A stretch of 64,000 bases of DNA from Seonamhaeicola aphaedonensis (GTDB lineage: Bacteria; Bacteroidota; Bacteroidia; Flavobacteriales; Flavobacteriaceae): positions 434,001 to 498,000 of the forward strand of contig NZ_QRDX01000001.1 of NCBI RefSeq assembly GCF_003386195.1. Direction: 5' to 3'. Shown here piece after piece: positions 16,291 through 61,393 of this stretch (position 1 is the stretch's first letter; each line of letters begins with the position of its first letter). Below the pieces are notes generated by a model. It was not told the DNA's origin. It saw nothing but the letters and a program-made list of their open reading frames with translations, and did no database searches. Position numbers and translations under genes: made by a program.

Positions 16291-18528
16291 CTATTCAATT
16301 CTATAGCGTAATCCAGCATAATACATACTCCCAAAAATAGGACCATATACAAAAGTGGTATCAAAATTTGAACCAAACGGATCATCTGTTCCTAAAATTG
16401 GATTTGGCTGCCTTACATTGGTAATGTTTTCACCACCTATGTATATCTCAAATTTAGCCGAAAACACTTTAGTCAATTGGGTGTTTAAAGTTGAAACTGT
16501 TGGGGTTTGATCAGGCAATTGATATTGCATAGGATTTGTTGCTGTTGATGAAAATCGCTGCTCCCCTAACCAATTAAATGTGGCATCAAATTTCCATTGA
16601 CTTCCCTGCTCAGTTAATTTAGTTTTATAACCAACATTAGCAAAAAATCGATGTTTTGGTGTTAACGGTCTTGTTAACCTACCCGATCTATAATCGGTTT
16701 TAACTTCATAATACTTATAAGCTGCTCTCAAATCTATTCCTCCAAATGGATTGTAATTAAACTCAACCTGAAAACTATTGGCGTAACTTTTTCCTTCTAA
16801 ATTATAAAAACTTACTTCTTGCGGATTTTCATAATCTACCACTACCTGATTTTTAAAATCGGTCTTATAATAATCTAACGTTATATCTGCTTTTTTTCCA
16901 AAGAGGTTGAAACCTTGTAAATAAGACACGCCATAATTCCAAGCAATTTCAGGATCTAAACCATAAATGTTTCCTCCAACATCATTAATAATAATATTTC
17001 GGGATGTAGCAAAAAGTTTCTGGTTTTCAGCAAAAATATTGGCACTTCGCTTTCCTCTTCCAAAAGAAGCTCTAAAGGCCGATTTTAGCCAAGGAGAATA
17101 ACGCACATGCACCCTTGGAGTTATAAAAGTTCCTAATAAATTATGATAATCTATCCTAATTCCAGCTGTTAAATTAAACAACTCTAAATTATCATGTGAA
17201 TACTCAAAAAAACCACCCACCGAAGTTTCGGTTCTTACAAAATCGTTAGAATTGACAAACTCATCATAATGGTCATAGGTATAACTAACACCCGTTTTTA
17301 TTTTATGACGCGAATCACTGATAATAGAATTATAAATAGCATTAGCATACAAACTATTATGTGTAATATCATAAGTATTCAATCCAAAATACGATTCTTG
17401 TTTATGACTACTAAATGCTGTTTGCACACCTAAACTTCGCCAGGGAATATCAGGATTTACATAACCAAGTTTAGTTGCAACCTCAAAACGTTCAGTATCA
17501 ATCTCACTTCCCCAAAAAATAGTTGTGCCTCTATCCCTGCTAGGGTCAAAATCTAATTGTCCTGCTTGCGTATTGTCATTGAGATATCTTAGGTTTATAA
17601 AACTTACAATACCTTTCTCTCCATTGGTATACTGCAAACGGTTCATAAGATTGATTTGCTGCTTCAATGGTACGTCAAGAAAAGAATCATTATTTCTATC
17701 AAATTTTTGATCTCTTAAGTTACCATGAACATACAAACCTGTACTCCATTTATTAGAAATATTCTGGTTAATATGTGTATTAAGTTCGTACCTACCGTTA
17801 ATACCAGCATAAGCGTTTACAAACAATTTATCATCTGTAGCAGGTTTAACCAATTCCGTATTGATTTGCCCTGCAATACTTTCAAAGCCATTTACAACAC
17901 TTCCAGCTCCCTTGGTGATTTGGATGCTTTCCACCCAAGTCCCTGGAATAAAACTTAATCCAAACGCTTGAGATGCACCACGTATGGACGGAATATTTTC
18001 AGTTGTGATTAAGATATAGGGGCTTGTAAGCCCCAACATTTTAATTTGTCTTGTTCCCGTAACAGCATCTGCAAAATTAACATCAATAGATGGATTGGTT
18101 TCAAAACTTTCAGACAGATTACAACAAGCAGCTTTTAATAACTCATCACTACTCACCGTTAACACATTCTGAGCTTGTAAATATGATTTTCTGGTAGCCA
18201 GCTTTCTTGTGGTCACGGTAATTTCATCTAAATTATCGGTTGGTTGCAGCCAATGCTCAATGGTTTTTTGTTTAGTTATGGTAATGGTATCTGTTTTAAA
18301 CCCCACATAACTAATAACCAATTTAGTATACTGCTTAGAATAACTTAAAGCAAACCTACCATCAACATCGGTTACAGTTCCTATATCGGTATTAAGCCAA
18401 TATACATTCGCTCCAACTAAAGCAAGTCTTTCGTTCTTTTCATTTGCTTCCAAAATGATTCCGCTTATACTTTCTTGTGATAAGACTAAAACTGGAAGTA
18501 TGAATAGTATATATATTATTTTCTTCAT
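16291..18528 (-). CDS. TonB-dependent receptor, probably metal-related
   Basis: 745 residues. A signal peptide is followed by a carboxypeptidase-regulatory-like beta domain (about 20-100), a plug (about 110-230, with ITKGAGSVVNGFESIAGQIN) and a 22-strand barrel ending in an aromatic-rich strand (MYYAGLRYRIE). The plug includes a CC pair in LKAACCNLSESFETNPS. It imports a ligand across the outer membrane with energy from TonB-ExbBD. Gene neighbours on both sides are HMA-domain and HYC_CC_PP proteins, so the ligand may be copper or a metal complex; that is inference from context. Confidence 0.92.
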   Translation of the reverse strand: MKKIIYILFILPVLVLSQESISGIILEANEKNERLALVGANVYWLNTDIGTVTDVDGRFALSYSKQYTKLVISYVGFKTDTITITKQKTIEHWLQPTDNLDEITVTTRKLATRKSYLQAQNVLTVSSDELLKAACCNLSESFETNPSIDVNFADAVTGTRQIKMLGLTSPYILITTENIPSIRGASQAFGLSFIPGTWVESIQITKGAGSVVNGFESIAGQINTELVKPATDDKLFVNAYAGINGRYELNTHINQNISNKWSTGLYVHGNLRDQKFDRNNDSFLDVPLKQQINLMNRLQYTNGEKGIVSFINLRYLNDNTQAGQLDFDPSRDRGTTIFWGSEIDTERFEVATKLGYVNPDIPWRSLGVQTAFSSHKQESYFGLNTYDITHNSLYANAIYNSIISDSRHKIKTGVSYTYDHYDEFVNSNDFVRTETSVGGFFEYSHDNLELFNLTAGIRIDYHNLLGTFITPRVHVRYSPWLKSAFRASFGRGKRSANIFAENQKLFATSRNIIINDVGGNIYGLDPEIAWNYGVSYLQGFNLFGKKADITLDYYKTDFKNQVVVDYENPQEVSFYNLEGKSYANSFQVEFNYNPFGGIDLRAAYKYYEVKTDYRSGRLTRPLTPKHRFFANVGYKTKLTEQGSQWKFDATFNWLGEQRFSSTATNPMQYQLPDQTPTVSTLNTQLTKVFSAKFEIYIGGENITNVRQPNPILGTDDPFGSNFDTTFVYGPIFGSMYYAGLRYRIE

Positions 18529-28938: not shown

Positions 28939-29559
28939 ATGAAAACAAATATTATAATAGCTTTTGGGTTATTTTTTGTTGTAGGATGCTCAAGCACAAA
29001 GGATATTACAAAAGGAAATTTTTCAAAATCTGAAGTCGAATTAATTTCTAATGCTGATAATGATAAGCCTATGCGGGTTTATAAAATCACAAACAAAAAG
29101 GATTCACTAATCTTACGAACTAGAAGTAGTTATATAAAACCAAACCCTCACAATAAACTTCAACAGAAATTTATTAAACGTTTATATGCTACCGTAAGAG
29201 ATAGTTTATCTTTAGGAGTTGGTATTGCAGCGCCTCAAGTGGGTGTTTTAAAAAATATTATTTGGGTACAGCGCTTTGATAAAGAAAGCCTTCCATTTGA
29301 AGTGTATCTAAATCCAAAAATTATAGAATACTCAGAAAAGAAGCAAACGGTTAGGGAAGGATGCTTATCAATACCCAATAGAACAGATACCTTAAACTCA
29401 AGATCATACACCATTAAAATTGAATATGATACGCAAGATGCCATACATAAAACAGAAACTATTGAAGGATTTACAGCAGTAATATTTCAACATGAAATAG
29501 ACCATTTAAATGGTATTTTATACTTAGATCATCTTAATAGAGAATTGAATCAGCAATAA
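28939..29559 (+). CDS. Peptide deformylase family protein with lipoprotein signal
   Basis: 206 residues. Residues 1-17 form a lipoprotein signal ending VVGC, so C17 would be acylated and the enzyme placed in the cell envelope. The catalytic part keeps all three deformylase motifs: GVGIAAPQVG (93-102), EGCLS (140-144) and HEIDH (185-189), including the metal ligands C142, H185, H189 and catalytic E186. Ordinary deformylases act in the cytosol on new proteins. An exported active version must have another substrate or role. It is last in the elongasome operon, 30 bases after rodA. Confidence 0.88.
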   Translation: MKTNIIIAFGLFFVVGCSSTKDITKGNFSKSEVELISNADNDKPMRVYKITNKKDSLILRTRSSYIKPNPHNKLQQKFIKRLYATVRDSLSLGVGIAAPQVGVLKNIIWVQRFDKESLPFEVYLNPKIIEYSEKKQTVREGCLSIPNRTDTLNSRSYTIKIEYDTQDAIHKTETIEGFTAVIFQHEIDHLNGILYLDHLNRELNQQ

Positions 29560-29856: not shown

Positions 29857-32163
29857 ATGAGATTAATTACTTTATGCATACTCTGCCTGTGTTCAATGGC
29901 TCAGGCTTTAGATGTAAAAGATTTAAAATGTGAATCTAAAACTAATCCCACAGGTATAACCAAGGCTAGACCAAGTTTTAGCTGGACTTTTATTGGAGAT
30001 GACGTAAGTACAGAACAGGGAGGTTTTAGAATTATGATGGCCACTAGTATTGAAAGACTTAAATATCCCGATTTATGGGATACTGGGCCAACTAGTAAAT
30101 CTGAAACAGGTTCCTATCAGTACTTGGGAGAACCCTTAAAATCGGGGCAAAAAGTCTATTGGATGGTTACGGTTTGGGGTAACAACCGTGGCGTAGCTCA
30201 TAGTGAACCCGCATGGTTTGTAATGGGAGACATTGAAAACCCTGAAAAACCATTCCAACCGCCCGTGTTTAAACAAAAAGATGGCGTAACTACAATCTAT
30301 TTAAACCCTGAAGACACTGGTAGAACATTTGAAGGTATTGGAGGTGTGAGTGCTGGTGCTTCTACAGATTTATTATATGATTATGAAGACCCCTACCGTA
30401 GTCACATTCTTGATATGCTTTTTAAGCCTAAATTTGGCGCTGGTTTTCAGCACTTGAAAGTCGAAATGGGTGGTGGTGAAAATTCAACCTGCGGTTCTGA
30501 ACCCTCTCATGCCATAACTCGAGAAGAATTAAAAAATCCTGTTTCACGTGGTTATGAGTTTTGGTTTATGAAAGAAGCCAAAAAAAGAAATACTAATATG
30601 ATTTTGGAATACTTACCTTGGAGTTTCCCAGGATACTTAAAACCAAATATTTTTACCAAAGAATCGGCTGAATACTTTGTTACTTTTTTAGATGTAGCTA
30701 AAAGAGATTGGGATTTAGATATTGACTGGGTAGCCGCAGCTGAAAATGAAAACTATACTGACAGGGATTGGCTTGTAAATGACGTGCGCCCTATGCTTGA
30801 TGCTAGAGGTTACAAAGATGTAAAAATTCAAGGACCAGATGACAATAGTGGCGATTGGCAAATATTTGAAGAACTTGAAAAAGATCCTGACTTTGACAAG
30901 GTAATTGAAGCAGCTGGTTATCATTATGTAACTGGTCGAGAATTTAATGAAAACATGGTAGATGGCCGCGGTAGACCAACAACGGCTAAAGCAAAAGCCT
31001 CTGGCAAACCACTTTGGGCTAGCGAAGACTGGAGTTGGACAGGTAAAGACTGGGGAGGCGCAGGAGCGCTTAATCTTGCTCGTATTTACAATAAATTTTA
31101 TATACGCGATAAAATTACCAAAACTTTAATATGGGCTCCAATTGGTTCCATTTATAAATCAGTAACATGGGATAAAGCTGGGGCTATGAAAGCTAACAGC
31201 CCCTGGAGTGGTTATTATGAAGTTTGGCCAACCATTTGGGCTACAGCACATACTACCCAATTTACCCAACCTCTTACTTGGAAATACTTAGATGAAGGCT
31301 GCGGACTATTTGATGCTAGTACATATAAAGGCAGTATTGTTTCATTAAAAGAAAAGAACAGTGAAAACTGGAGTATGATAATATGTACAGAAAACTCTGA
31401 AAAACTTCAAGTGAACATTAACGATGGTTTAGCAAATAAAATTGTTCATGTATGGAAATCAGATGAAAATGAACAGTTCGTACAACAAAAAAGCATAATA
31501 CCAGAAAATGGACAATTCAGCATTGAACTAGACCCTAAATGTATATACTCACTAACCACTACTGTAGGTCAACAAAAAGGACAATATAAAATCCCTAAGG
31601 AAGAGGCTTTTCCGTTTCCGTATAAAGAAGATTATGAAGACCGAGATGTTGGAGATCTTCCAAAATATCACTCAGATCAAACAGGAAGTTTCGAAATTGC
31701 TAAAAAAGAAGATGGCACTAATTGTTTAAAGCAAATAAACCCTGAGCAAGGTTATGATTGGATGCGTGTTTACCGTCGTTCTAATATTAAACCCAATACA
31801 TTGATAGGCGATGTTAACTGGAAAGACTTTACGTGTAGTGTAGATGTATTTATAGATGATGGAAATGTAGAATTAGGAGGGCGTGTGCAAGGGAGCTACC
31901 TTAAGGGATACCGACTCATGCTACAAAAAGATGGTAACTGGAAATTAGTTTTTGATAAAGAAACGCTTGCCGAAGGACTTATTAAAAACTTTGATGGTAG
32001 TATATGGCACAATATAAAATTAAAATTTTATGGTAAAGACATTGAGGCCTTTGTTGACGGGACAGCTTTATCAAAAATAACCCATAAAAGTAAAACAGGT
32101 TATGTTTTACTAGGAAGTTCTTATAACGCTAATTTATTTGATAATTTAGAGGTTATACCGTAA
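29857..32163 (+). CDS. Secreted GH59-family glycosidase (galactosylceramidase-like) with rhamnosidase-type N-terminal domain
   Basis: 768 residues from ATG 29857 with signal peptide ending AQA. Residues 20-125 resemble the N-terminal beta domain of bacterial alpha-L-rhamnosidases (KCESKTNPTGITKARPSFSW, SGQKVYWMVTVWG). Residues about 145-470 match the TIM barrel of mammalian galactocerebrosidase: FEGIGGVSAGAS, PYRSHILDMLFKPKFGA, MKEAKKRN, LPWSFPG, HTTQFTQP. Acid/base E298 sits in ENENY and nucleophile E390 in WASEDWS. A beta-sandwich and a C-terminal lectin-like domain (about 590-768) follow, as in GALC. It should cleave beta-galactosides; the natural substrate is unknown. No SusCD or other polysaccharide genes are nearby. 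Confidence 0.88.
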   Translation: MRLITLCILCLCSMAQALDVKDLKCESKTNPTGITKARPSFSWTFIGDDVSTEQGGFRIMMATSIERLKYPDLWDTGPTSKSETGSYQYLGEPLKSGQKVYWMVTVWGNNRGVAHSEPAWFVMGDIENPEKPFQPPVFKQKDGVTTIYLNPEDTGRTFEGIGGVSAGASTDLLYDYEDPYRSHILDMLFKPKFGAGFQHLKVEMGGGENSTCGSEPSHAITREELKNPVSRGYEFWFMKEAKKRNTNMILEYLPWSFPGYLKPNIFTKESAEYFVTFLDVAKRDWDLDIDWVAAAENENYTDRDWLVNDVRPMLDARGYKDVKIQGPDDNSGDWQIFEELEKDPDFDKVIEAAGYHYVTGREFNENMVDGRGRPTTAKAKASGKPLWASEDWSWTGKDWGGAGALNLARIYNKFYIRDKITKTLIWAPIGSIYKSVTWDKAGAMKANSPWSGYYEVWPTIWATAHTTQFTQPLTWKYLDEGCGLFDASTYKGSIVSLKEKNSENWSMIICTENSEKLQVNINDGLANKIVHVWKSDENEQFVQQKSIIPENGQFSIELDPKCIYSLTTTVGQQKGQYKIPKEEAFPFPYKEDYEDRDVGDLPKYHSDQTGSFEIAKKEDGTNCLKQINPEQGYDWMRVYRRSNIKPNTLIGDVNWKDFTCSVDVFIDDGNVELGGRVQGSYLKGYRLMLQKDGNWKLVFDKETLAEGLIKNFDGSIWHNIKLKFYGKDIEAFVDGTALSKITHKSKTGYVLLGSSYNANLFDNLEVIP

Positions 32164-32280: not shown

Positions 32281-32619
32281 TTACTTATTTTTCAATTCTA
32301 ATTTTTCGGCAAAATAATCACAAAAATCTTTCATGGTTGCCGTCATCTTTTCGTCTTGTGTCGCTCTTTTAAATGTATCACTCATAGATACTAAAGTTTG
32401 ATAAAAAAACACCTTCATTTCATCAACAGGCATATCTTTAGTCCATAAATCTATACGCAAAGATTCTTGGGTATTAGAGTCCCAAACACTAAGCATCATC
32501 GCTTTAGATTCTTCATTGTTTATGCCTCCATCTTCAGCAGACCAAAACAGTTTTTCTGGAACTCTATTTTCATCTAGTTCAACATTCAATTCAATCTTTG
32601 ATGTGTATGTTTTACCCAT
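32281..32619 (-). CDS. gldC: Gliding motility protein GldC
   Basis: 112 residues, cytosolic, matching GldC: SKIELNVELDENRVPEKLFW and AEDGGINNEESKAMMLSVWD, then ESLRIDLWTKDMPVDEMKVF. GldC is not absolutely essential but enhances gliding, and its gene sits beside gldB in Flavobacteria, as here. Its start coincides with the last base of the gldB stop, so the two are translationally coupled. Confidence 0.95.
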   Translation of the reverse strand: MGKTYTSKIELNVELDENRVPEKLFWSAEDGGINNEESKAMMLSVWDSNTQESLRIDLWTKDMPVDEMKVFFYQTLVSMSDTFKRATQDEKMTATMKDFCDYFAEKLELKNK

Positions 32620-37396: not shown

Positions 37397-37723
37397 ATGG
37401 GAGTAACAAAATCAGAAAAGTTTACAAACCTTCAAAATGACATTGCTGTATTAGCTAAAGTGTTAGGACATCCTGCCAGAGTAGCCATCATTCAACATTT
37501 GTTTAAAATTAACACCTGTATCTGTGGCGACTTGGTTGACGAAATTGGTCTAGCACAACCCACTATTTCGCAACATTTAAAGGAACTTAAAAATGTAGGA
37601 CTTATTAAAGGTAATATTGAAGGTACTAGTGTTTGTTACTGTATTGATAAAGACAACTGGACTAAAATGAAAGATTTAATGACAGAGTTTTTAGACTTAG
37701 ATATAACCTTTAACTGTTGTTAA
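37397..37723 (+). CDS. arsR: ArsR-family arsenic-responsive repressor
   Basis: 108 residues, winged helix: LAKVLGHPARVAIIQHL, GLAQPTISQHLKELKNVGLI. A C41-x-C43 pair (CICGDLV) sits where the ELCVCDL metalloid site of classical ArsR lies; C80/C82 and a terminal C107-C108 pair are also available. It should leave DNA when arsenite binds. It is followed after 49 bases by arsM, whose leader carries a second copy of the same operator. Confidence 0.9.
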   Translation: MGVTKSEKFTNLQNDIAVLAKVLGHPARVAIIQHLFKINTCICGDLVDEIGLAQPTISQHLKELKNVGLIKGNIEGTSVCYCIDKDNWTKMKDLMTEFLDLDITFNCC

Positions 37724-37741
37724 AAAAATTTAAATTATTTA

Positions 37742-37757
37742 ATCGTAAAATTACAAT
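37742..37757 (+). promoter_or_regulatory. ArsR operator 2, before arsM
   Basis: ATCGTAAAATTACAAT differs from operator 1 at three of 16 bases and is a more symmetrical palindrome. It ends 15 bases before the arsM ATG, within the arsR-arsM spacer. Confidence 0.65.
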
Positions 37758-37772
37758 AAAAGAGTATTATTC

Positions 37773-38660
37773 ATGGATTCAAAAGAGCAAGCTTTAAAAG
37801 ACATCGTTAAAGAACGCTACAGCAAAATAGCTGAACAGGGTAAAGCAGAAAACGCATCATCATGCTGTGGTGCTACTACACCATCAAATAAAGTATACAA
37901 CATTATGATGGACGATTATTCTAAAACCAAAGGTTATGTTGAAGATGCCGATTTAGGTTTGGGTTGCGGACTTCCAACGCAGTATGCTAAAATACATAAA
38001 GGCGATACTGTTATCGATTTAGGCTCTGGGGCAGGAAATGATTGCTTTGTAGCCAGACATGAAACGGGTGCTAAAGGCAAAGTCATAGGCATTGACTTCA
38101 CTCCTACTATGATTGAAAAAGCACGTACTAATTCCGAAAAGCTTGGTTACAATAATGTTGAATTTAGAGAAGGTGACATTGATAATATGCCTGTTAATGA
38201 TAATGTAGCCGATGTTATTGTTAGTAATTGTGTATTAAACCTAGTTCCCAACAAACAAAAGGTCATTGGAGAAATTTTTAGAGTTTTAAAACCGGGTGGA
38301 CATTTTAGTATTTCGGACATTGTGCTTGTTGGTGATTTACCAGATGCTTTAAAACAAGATGCTGAAATGTATGCCGGTTGTGTAGCGGGTGCTATTCAAA
38401 AACATGACTATTTACAATTTATTAAAGATAAAGGTTTTGAGTCTATTACCATTCAAAAGGAAAAAACCATTAACATCCCTGAGGATATCCTTTCAAAATA
38501 TCTTACTATAGAACAAGTTAAAGCATTTAATAATAGTGGAGTTGGTATTTTTAGTATTACTGTTTATGCTGAAAAACCAGGAGTAAAAACTGATAAATCT
38601 AAAATTAAGCTATCAGAATTACAAGACACCTGTTGTTCGCCTAAGAGCGGGTGTTGTTAA
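37773..38660 (+). CDS. arsM: Arsenite S-adenosylmethionine methyltransferase ArsM
   Basis: 295 residues. The SAM-binding motif is VIDLGSGAGND (80-90). The three arsenite-binding cysteines of ArsM enzymes are matched by C65 (GLGCG), C153 (SNCVLNL) and C203 (YAGCVAGA). A CC pair at 31-32 and a terminal CC...CC motif (287-288, 294-295) supply more thiols. It converts arsenite to methylated, partly volatile arsenicals for detoxification. It forms an operon with arsR and ends before a strong terminator. No arsenite pump or reductase is adjacent. Confidence 0.95.
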   Translation: MDSKEQALKDIVKERYSKIAEQGKAENASSCCGATTPSNKVYNIMMDDYSKTKGYVEDADLGLGCGLPTQYAKIHKGDTVIDLGSGAGNDCFVARHETGAKGKVIGIDFTPTMIEKARTNSEKLGYNNVEFREGDIDNMPVNDNVADVIVSNCVLNLVPNKQKVIGEIFRVLKPGGHFSISDIVLVGDLPDALKQDAEMYAGCVAGAIQKHDYLQFIKDKGFESITIQKEKTINIPEDILSKYLTIEQVKAFNNSGVGIFSITVYAEKPGVKTDKSKIKLSELQDTCCSPKSGCC

Positions 38661-60478: not shown

Positions 60479-61393
60479 ATGTTCGGAAAGAAAAAAAGTA
60501 TGACTCAAATTGATAAAGAGCAGCTAGAATTAATTGAAAATGCCCAAAGACGTATTAAACAAAAAAAACGTCTATACATTCATTTTGTATTATTTCTTAT
60601 TGGCTCTATATTAATAATAGTAGCTAATACTGTTTTAGGTATAGGCAAAGATTTTACACCATTTGAAAAAGAATGGTTTGTCTTTGCTATTCTTATCTGG
60701 TTATTTTTGTTGCTTTATCACACCTTTAATGTGTTTGTAACCCATAAATTTATGGGTAAAGAATGGGAGCAAAAGCAGTTGAACAAGTTGGTTGCTGAAC
60801 AAAAAACTAGGATTGAAAAAATTAAGAAAGAGCTAAAAAAAGAAGCGTCTCATATTGCCGAGAGTGAAATTTACAATGAAGAACTTACCATAAAAGATAA
60901 AACTTCAGAACTTACAATTATTGCTGCTGCTGCTGAAAACAACGCTATTGGAAAAGACAACAAACTTATTTGGCATTTAAGTAATGATTTAAAAAGGTTT
61001 AAATCCTTAACCGATGGTCACCATATAATTATGGGACGAAAAACATTTGAAAGCTTTCCTAAGCCCTTACCGAATAGGACACACGTTGTTATTACTAGGC
61101 AATCAGATTACAAAGCCCCTAATGGTGTTATTTTAGTGAATAGTTTAGAGGCTGCGATTGAAGCTTCAAAAAATGATTCACAACCCTTTGTAATTGGTGG
61201 GGGCGAAATTTACAAGCAAGCCATGACTTTTGCAGATAAAATTGAACTTACTAGAGTTCATGAAACGTTTGAAGCAGATGCCTTTTTCCCAGAAATAGAT
61301 TCTAATATTTGGAAAGAAACTTTTAATGAATTTCATCAAAAAGATGAAAACCATGATTTTGAGTTTTCTTTTTTAACTTACGTAAGAATCTAA
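60479..61393 (+). CDS. folA: 2TM-domain dihydrofolate reductase fusion
   Basis: 304 residues in one frame. Residues about 33-88 form two transmembrane helices of the bacterial 2TM domain (RLYIHFVLFLIGSILIIVAN, ILIWLFLLLYHTFNVFV). A coiled coil (about 95-135) follows. From 144 a complete DHFR domain reads ELTIIAAAAENNAIGKDNKL with catalytic D170 after W165, IIMGRKTFESFP and VIGGGEIYKQAM. It should reduce dihydrofolate to THF at the inner face of the membrane. The two parts are usually separate genes, so this fusion is unusual. Close to thyA. Confidence 0.92.
   Translation: MFGKKKSMTQIDKEQLELIENAQRRIKQKKRLYIHFVLFLIGSILIIVANTVLGIGKDFTPFEKEWFVFAILIWLFLLLYHTFNVFVTHKFMGKEWEQKQLNKLVAEQKTRIEKIKKELKKEASHIAESEIYNEELTIKDKTSELTIIAAAAENNAIGKDNKLIWHLSNDLKRFKSLTDGHHIIMGRKTFESFPKPLPNRTHVVITRQSDYKAPNGVILVNSLEAAIEASKNDSQPFVIGGGEIYKQAMTFADKIELTRVHETFEADAFFPEIDSNIWKETFNEFHQKDENHDFEFSFLTYVRI

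Follow-up and report, generated by a model that had tools for sequence, protein, structure and literature searches.

The gene at positions 29857 to 32163 of the window, which is the whole stretch of 64,000 nucleotides (64 kb) of Seonamhaeicola aphaedonensis DNA that was analyzed, is, judged by its sequence, a member of a GH59 subfamily of marine bacteria with a three-domain core of the galactocerebrosidase (GALC) type and an additional Ig-like N-terminal domain of the GH78 type. GH59 proteins with this N-domain were designated "two-part" and those without it "one-part." The favored explanation, which is given slightly better than an even chance, is that the product is secreted, takes part in ulvan breakdown as a retaining enzyme of the exo-beta-galactosidase type, and is encoded outside the ulvan cluster; we infer the activity, galactose as the sugar, and the stage at which the enzyme would act. 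Animal galactocerebrosidase is the enzyme lost in Krabbe disease, GH59 enzymes are retaining, as is the case for GALC, and to our knowledge the family is known mainly through this one human disease enzyme.

The open reading frame (ORF) of 768 aa begins with the ATG at 29857 and ends with the final stop base at 32163, so that the earlier coordinates were right; an alternative GTG start 48 bases upstream of the ATG would give a product of 784 aa. The gene and its parts are as follows.

29857 to 32163, + strand: GH59 enzyme, 768 aa, with Ig_Rha78A_N domain, barrel, beta-sandwich, and lectin domain (ORF, Pfam, model)
29857 to 29907, + strand: probable Sec signal peptide, residues 1 to 17 (read from the sequence)
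29914 to 30228, + strand: Ig_Rha78A_N domain as in GH78 alpha-L-rhamnosidases, residues 20 to 124 (Pfam, E 1.3e-22)
30328 to 31260, + strand: GH59 catalytic barrel, residues 158 to 468 (Pfam, E 2.5e-109; predicted model)
31675 to 32154, + strand: GH59 C-terminal lectin domain, residues 607 to 766 (Pfam, E 1e-14)

The original prediction of a GH59 galactosylceramidase homolog with an extra rhamnosidase-like N-domain was confirmed by these assignments. The barrel model PF02057 was covered end to end (positions 1 to 294 of 294), and the best solved relative by sequence was mouse GALC (E 3.5e-74). Two solved rhamnosidases matched residues 18 to 124 only, with a best E of 2.1e-10. The Ig_Rha78A_N domain, which shared 26 to 37% identity with ten further proteins of the own genome, was the sole GH78-type part: the N-terminal Ig domain is held in common with the GH78 alpha-L-rhamnosidases, but their catalytic (6-hairpin) domain was not found by Pfam. 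The enzyme is probably secreted, with the periplasm as its likely location; no lipobox was read at its start, and a T9SS domain was absent in the Pfam scan.

The AlphaFold model used was built with 79 sequences and reached a mean pLDDT of 90.7, replacing an earlier one from 11 sequences with a pLDDT of 55.3. Residues 145 to 768 were superposed on mouse GALC with a Z score of 48.3 and 1.8 Å over 591 residues at 36% identity, and the structure matches to the model were headed by three GALC entries, followed by GH30 enzymes with Z scores of 37 and lower. The barrel and both C-terminal domains had been claimed to follow GALC, and in the predicted model they do. The middle domain had a weak Pfam score (E 0.0038, under its own cutoff) and is nevertheless present in the predicted fold, because the model superposes on GALC over residues 145 to 768.

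To place the protein among its relatives, genomes of 84,980 species were scanned, which yielded 441 GH59-encoding stretches, and the best 80 of these (79 loci) were kept. One locus, L125, had no GH59 ORF and was left out of the tree and the alignment but was kept among the 48 one-part neighborhoods. Among these best 80 of 441, the N-domain was present in 31 of the 78 loci giving an ORF and was common to 32 of 79 aligned GH59 proteins, so by sequence comparison this gene is not alone in having the extra domain. The 31 two-part loci were distributed to 27 Flavobacteriaceae, 3 other Bacteroidota (Labilibacter, Carboxylicivirga, and a Bacteroidales metagenome-assembled genome [MAG]), and 1 Opitutae MAG, and their products were 72 to 92% identical to the window protein. 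One-part bacterial GH59 proteins were found in Acidobacteriota, Verrucomicrobiota, Planctomycetota, Sphingobacteriaceae, and others.

The two-part proteins formed one clade of 33 rows, including the window protein and that of the congener G301, with an SH-aLRT of 100, and the close sister of the window protein in the tree was that of Seonamhaeicola sediminis. Repeated independent fusions were rejected, since the two-part N-domains also formed one set of 33 rows (SH-aLRT 100) in a short alignment of 114 columns with flagged long branches; this set contained 32 labeled rows and one unlabeled row, presumably a second entry of the L064 protein. A recent transfer from animals was rejected as well, because GH59 occurs widely among bacteria (441 encoding stretches); mouse GALC, the sole animal sequence in the tree, had a long and weakly placed branch. 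The window gene is also not the sister of the GH59 gene in the G301 cluster, which grouped with that of Algibacter onchidii (SH-aLRT 100). An approximately unbiased (AU) test rejected the window protein, S. sediminis, and G301 as one clade with a p of 1.5e-63, a value that is optimistic because the tested group was chosen after viewing the tree. L090 was rejected as a two-part candidate, since its GH59 ORF has no N-domain and a GH78 gene adjoins it.

Residues of the predicted active site and its surroundings are listed with their conservation among the best 80 of 441 stretches.

30748 to 30750, + strand: E298, predicted acid/base, GALC E182; conserved in 79 of 79 aligned GH59 proteins
30928 to 30966, + strand: 13-residue stretch, residues 358 to 370, with R361; gapped in mouse GALC and L048, edges of the gap uncertain by one residue
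31024 to 31026, + strand: E390, predicted nucleophile, GALC E258; conserved in 79 of 79 aligned GH59 proteins
31384 to 31386, + strand: C510, corresponding to GALC R380; all 32 two-part proteins have Cys here
31765 to 31776, + strand: R637 and R640, beside W635 (GALC W524); all 32 two-part proteins have Arg at both positions

On a point set beforehand as a refuting test, the alignment placed E298 and E390 on the GALC pair E182 and E258, as had been claimed. The available text of PMC4445328 names W135, G48, T93, S261, and R380 of GALC as the partners of the 3-, 4-, and 6-OH of the sugar, positions N181 and E258 at its C2, credits the galactose specificity to W291, counts W524 as part of the pocket, and states that glucose-based analogues fail to bind. 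E182 and these contacts gave ten residues for comparison, nine of which were kept (G48, T93, W135, N181, E182, E258, S261, W291, and W524). In the window protein, W135, G48, T93, S261, R380, N181, E258, W291, and W524 correspond to W255, G167, T211, S393, C510, N297, E390, W426, and W635, respectively; G48 was assigned to G167 by eye from the alignment, and G167 is invariant among the aligned sequences. Like C510, W426 was conserved in all 32 two-part proteins (best 80 of 441). The place of Y303 of GALC, which we take to be a pocket residue, is occupied by Trp in the window protein. One-part bacterial proteins have the same core and the catalytic pair in 47 of 47 cases; 39 of the 47 have Glu where GALC has R380, and 31 of them have Pro where it has S261 (best 80 of 441). 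All 32 two-part proteins have the stretch of residues 358 to 370, and its columns 359 to 363 were occupied in just 11 of 47 one-part proteins (best 80 of 441). Judged from their neighbors in the sequence, this stretch as well as R637 and R640 may be near the pocket.

The window protein resembles animal GALC (EC 3.2.1.46) in its predicted three-domain fold, the two catalytic Glu residues, and nine of the ten pocket positions compared, and differs in the extra Ig N-domain, the exchange of R380 to Cys, the added residues 358 to 370, and R637/R640. A sugar with an axial 4-OH is likeliest at position −1 because W426 and the other contacts are kept, and a modified or acidic sugar is allowed instead because R380 is lost and Arg residues are added. 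The alternatives to the favored explanation partly overlap, so their probabilities need not total unity. It is a tentative possibility that the exchange of R380, the Arg-bearing additions, and the rhamnosidase-type Ig domain represent a retuning of the GALC fold for an acidic or sulfated galacto-configured ulvan branch outside the accepted structure of ulvan; in this case, bacterial gene context would reveal an unmapped sugar linkage. It is rather doubtful that the protein is an ulvan enzyme of different specificity whose −1 site accommodates, in place of beta-D-galactose, a sugar such as alpha-L-arabinopyranose, xylose, a uronic acid of galacto configuration, or galactose bearing sulfate or methyl groups. 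The invariant Cys at the R380 place in the two-part proteins and the residues R637, R640, and the R361 stretch added relative to mouse GALC agree with such an enzyme, as do the regular occurrence of xylose in ulvan according to the available text of PMC8511951, an XylE-like major facilitator superfamily (MFS) transporter gene beside GH59 in L040, and the galacturonic acid and possible 3-O-methyl-galactose in the AGP-like fraction of Ulva lactuca discussed below. The conservation of W426 and the other compared contacts in 32 of 32 two-part proteins (best 80 of 441) argues against it, little about the substrate can be read from an XylE-like transporter, and xylose in particular is argued against because glucose-based analogues do not bind GALC in the available text of PMC4445328.

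The gene neighborhoods of the relatives pointed toward a polysaccharide substrate. The ORFs around ten family loci (L039 to L048) were sorted into 33 clusters, and 20 proteins were scanned by family models; the neighbors included GH78, GH106, GH2, sulfatases, PL8, BNR_4 proteins, GH88-like proteins, and others. Three BNR_4 proteins are ulvan lyases by their match to solved ulvan lyases, proteins of L043 and of the own-genome locus L050 matched the "short ulvan lyase" and Uly1 with E values of 5e-156 and 4e-177, and the protein adjoining GH59 in L044 matched PL25 (E 1e-161). Uly1 is presumably a PL24 enzyme. LOR_107 (6BYT) is assigned to PL24 in the available text of PMC8377490.

Matches by blastp (E 1e-12, at least 150 residues) up to 10 kb on each side were counted around the loci from the best 80 of 441 stretches. 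For the two-part loci, GH78 was found in 22 of 31, GH106 in 19 of 31, a sulfatase in 21 of 31, and a PL24/PL25 lyase in 13 of 31, a count that favors matches near two-part loci because the reference proteins were mostly from the same relatives. At least one rhamnosidase, sulfatase, or PL24/PL25 lyase was within 10 kb in 30 of the 31 (best 80 of 441), and the sole exception was L057, the S. sediminis gene at the window's own site. The one-part loci, many of which sit on short contigs, had GH78 in 2, GH106 in 1, and a sulfatase in 3 of 48, and PL24/PL25 relatives in none of the 48 neighborhoods, many of them short (best 80 of 441). GH78 or GH106 was thus present in 27 of 31 two-part versus 3 of 48 one-part loci (Fisher 1e-13) and, when restricted to at least 18 kb of sequence, in 27 of 30 versus 1 of 17 (best 80 of 441). 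Because nearly all close relatives reside among ulvan genes, the substrate is probably a galactose-like sugar from the algal cell wall rather than from a lipid.

A cassette of an XylE-like MFS gene, a gene for a TPR/DUF5107 protein, and GH59 was observed at L040:7502-14563 and L043:3975-11042, and one of MFS, TPR/DUF5107, and GH59 also in G301 at about 2200462-2207535 of C1; the MFS gene adjoining GH59 in L040 is closest to that of the xylose symporter XylE. Both partners were present around 3 of the 31 two-part loci; of the 48 one-part loci, 7 had TPR/DUF5107 and 11 had MFS in the vicinity (best 80 of 441). The pairing looks old because it also occurs near one-part GH59 loci. A literature search on DUF5107 gave nothing related, judged by title.

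Co-occurrence within the family pointed in the same direction. Three samples of Flavobacteriaceae genomes were taken as one set of 299, including the own genome. In 11 of these, GH59 was matched strongly (E below 1e-80); 10 were two-part, and the eleventh, G094, was a 708-aa form without the N-domain. In total, 49 family genomes matched the GH59 model, 38 of them weakly and mostly by ORFs of about 490 aa, which may be GH30. PL24 was encoded in 14 of 299 genomes, of which 9 were among the 10 two-part carriers and 5 among the 289 others (Fisher p 4e-13, with kinship uncorrected), and PL25 likewise in 14 of 299, in the same nine carriers and 5 of 289 others. The carrier without PL24 and PL25, G271, is listed as 76% complete. 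Within Seonamhaeicola, a full GH59 was found in 3 of 7 genomes, PL24 in exactly these three, and PL25 in these three and one more. GH59 is not required, because five genomes with PL24 and five with PL25 have no two-part GH59. In G071, two PL24-type frames (C1:3057688-3059085 and C1:2924607-2925857) have one internal stop each, with an intact copy beside.

A galactolipid had been suggested as a possible natural substrate, and this was not supported: the two-part relatives sit among rhamnosidases, sulfatases, and ulvan lyases, and their carriers also possess ulvan lyases, 9 of 10 with PL24 plus PL25. A galactolipid hydrolase cleaving galactosylceramide or algal MGDG is accordingly very improbable, although GALC is the nearest solved relative across all three domains. 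The polysaccharide gene context of the two-part proteins is a further difference from GALC, and R380, which moves upon substrate binding in GALC in the available text of PMC5764952, is absent.

The window gene is the sole full GH59 gene found in the own genome, which encodes two PL24 relatives and one PL25 relative on contig C5. About 1 to 176 kb of C5 is a large ulvan-type cluster with GH78, GH106, sulfatases, and lyases and without GH59. Its first 160 kb (1 to 160 kb) are collinear with 100 kb of the G301 cluster, the reciprocal best hits being mostly 70 to 95% identical, and C5 is devoid of the G301 block of a 286-aa gene, MFS, TPR/DUF5107, and GH59, in which the names MFS and TPR/DUF5107 were taken over from the similar genes at L040 and L043. 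As far as the available texts go, the C5 cluster resembles PUL H of Formosa agariphila (PMC8511951) in uniting lyases, several GH families, and sulfatases, and PUA1001 of Pseudoalteromonas marina (PMC13050008) in having PL24, PL25, and GH106. Unlike in ulvan utilization loci, the window GH59 copy is outside the locus. The available texts of two papers on ulvan clusters (PMC13050008 and PMC12313589) do not mention GH59, a literature search with most subscription journals outside its reach gave nothing that links GH59 to ulvan, and the GH59 literature among the matches listed, judged by titles and the starts of abstracts, contained none on GH59 of ulvan clusters. At C5:6465-9980, one ORF combines sulfatase with rhamnosidase regions.

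According to the favored explanation, PL24/PL25 lyases would cut ulvan, sulfatases and rhamnosidases would trim the products, and the GH59 enzyme would then release beta-D-galactose, or an equivalent sugar of galacto configuration, from the ends of oligosaccharides associated with ulvan. E298 would protonate the glycosidic oxygen, E390 would form the covalent intermediate, and W426 would select for the axial 4-OH. In the window species and S. sediminis, this gene occupies a housekeeping site, with the window species' own ulvan cluster staying on another contig. The most economical account of the target is a minor portion of ulvan that carries galactose, or an attached Ulva glycan. It counts against this explanation that the main ulvan repeats consist of rhamnose, glucuronate, iduronate, and xylose, those listed in the available text of PMC8511951 being without galactose, that the sugar-contacting R380 is lost, and that the window copy itself is outside any cluster. 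Galactose is nevertheless reported for ulvan preparations, with an entry of 9.8 in a neutral-sugar table for U. lactuca ulvan in the available text of PMC9164130 and with 16 mol% for U. ralfsii in that of PMC11377408. The same text of PMC9164130 ascribes, as a suggestion, 3-O-methyl hexose in ulvan to contaminating glycoproteins and reports galactose, galacturonic acid, and possible 3-O-methyl-galactose in an AGP-like fraction of U. lactuca.

The same enzyme class could also act on another green-algal polymer that is processed by the same cluster, such as an AGP-like protein glycan, a rhamnan, or a rhamnogalactan, which overlaps with the favored explanation. The galactose in the AGP-like fraction would agree with this, as would the rhamnogalactan sulfates named in green algae by the available text of a review, but the co-occurring markers are ulvan lyases, so such a target is unlikely. 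If the assignment to ulvan breakdown is true, the GH59 family gains a role in polysaccharide degradation via a bacterial, ulvan-tied subfamily, a soluble bacterial counterpart of GALC becomes available for structural and inhibitor studies, and a galactose-type branch that is removed by degraders is suggested to exist on ulvan or on an Ulva glycan associated with it.

The site of the gene in the window is bordered by two genes identified by family-model scan and comparison with congeners.

28939 to 29559, + strand: peptide deformylase-like gene, left flank, adjoining the insertion
32281 to 32619, − strand: gldC, right flank

On the left, mreB-mreC-mreD-mrdA (names read from the ORFs) and rodA precede the deformylase gene; on the right are gldC, gldB, and nadE. 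The same gene order, GH59 included, exists at this site in S. sediminis. Among the congeners without GH59 here, the deformylase gene is directly beside gldC in G300 and G302, one 135-aa ORF is between them in G213 and G301, and the fifth congener, G303, is rearranged, with a different deformylase side. The simplest account is a single insertion in the ancestor of the window species and S. sediminis, with four of five other congeners examined being empty at the site. The window showed no trace of this 135-aa ORF, the best match (E 0.094) being elsewhere than at the site. The claim that no SusCD or other CAZyme is nearby was supported: no relative of 15 carbohydrate-cluster reference classes, which include sulfatase, GH78, GH106, GH2, GH43, GH88, three lyase types, SusC, and SusD, occurred elsewhere in the 64-kb window, and family models assigned no GH or PL family above the cutoff to the 25 other window ORFs that were scanned. 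One TonB-type receptor is encoded 11 kb from the GH59 gene (16291 to 18528).

The orphan GH59 copy is under purifying selection. In comparison with S. sediminis, its dN/dS was 0.061 over 768 codons and 0.053 for the first 140, and that of the flanking genes was 0.039 (gldC), 0.122 (gldB), 0.099 (rodA), and 0.003 (mreB). These values and the intact ORF make a stranded relic without a present role extremely improbable, even though the site is known in two species only. The G+C content of the gene was 37.2%, that of the C5 genes had a median of 36.5%, and the window mean was 33.3%.

The deformylase-like protein (28939 to 29559) has a lipoprotein-like start with VVGC by sequence reading, and the genome has two deformylase matches, this gene and one on contig C7; a deformylase located outside the cytoplasm would be odd. 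Elsewhere in the window, positions 37397 to 38660 contain a small ArsR-like regulator gene (ORF reading) adjoining an arsenite methyltransferase gene, and positions 60479 to 61390 encode a dihydrofolate reductase behind a membrane domain with two transmembrane segments (2TM) in a single ORF.
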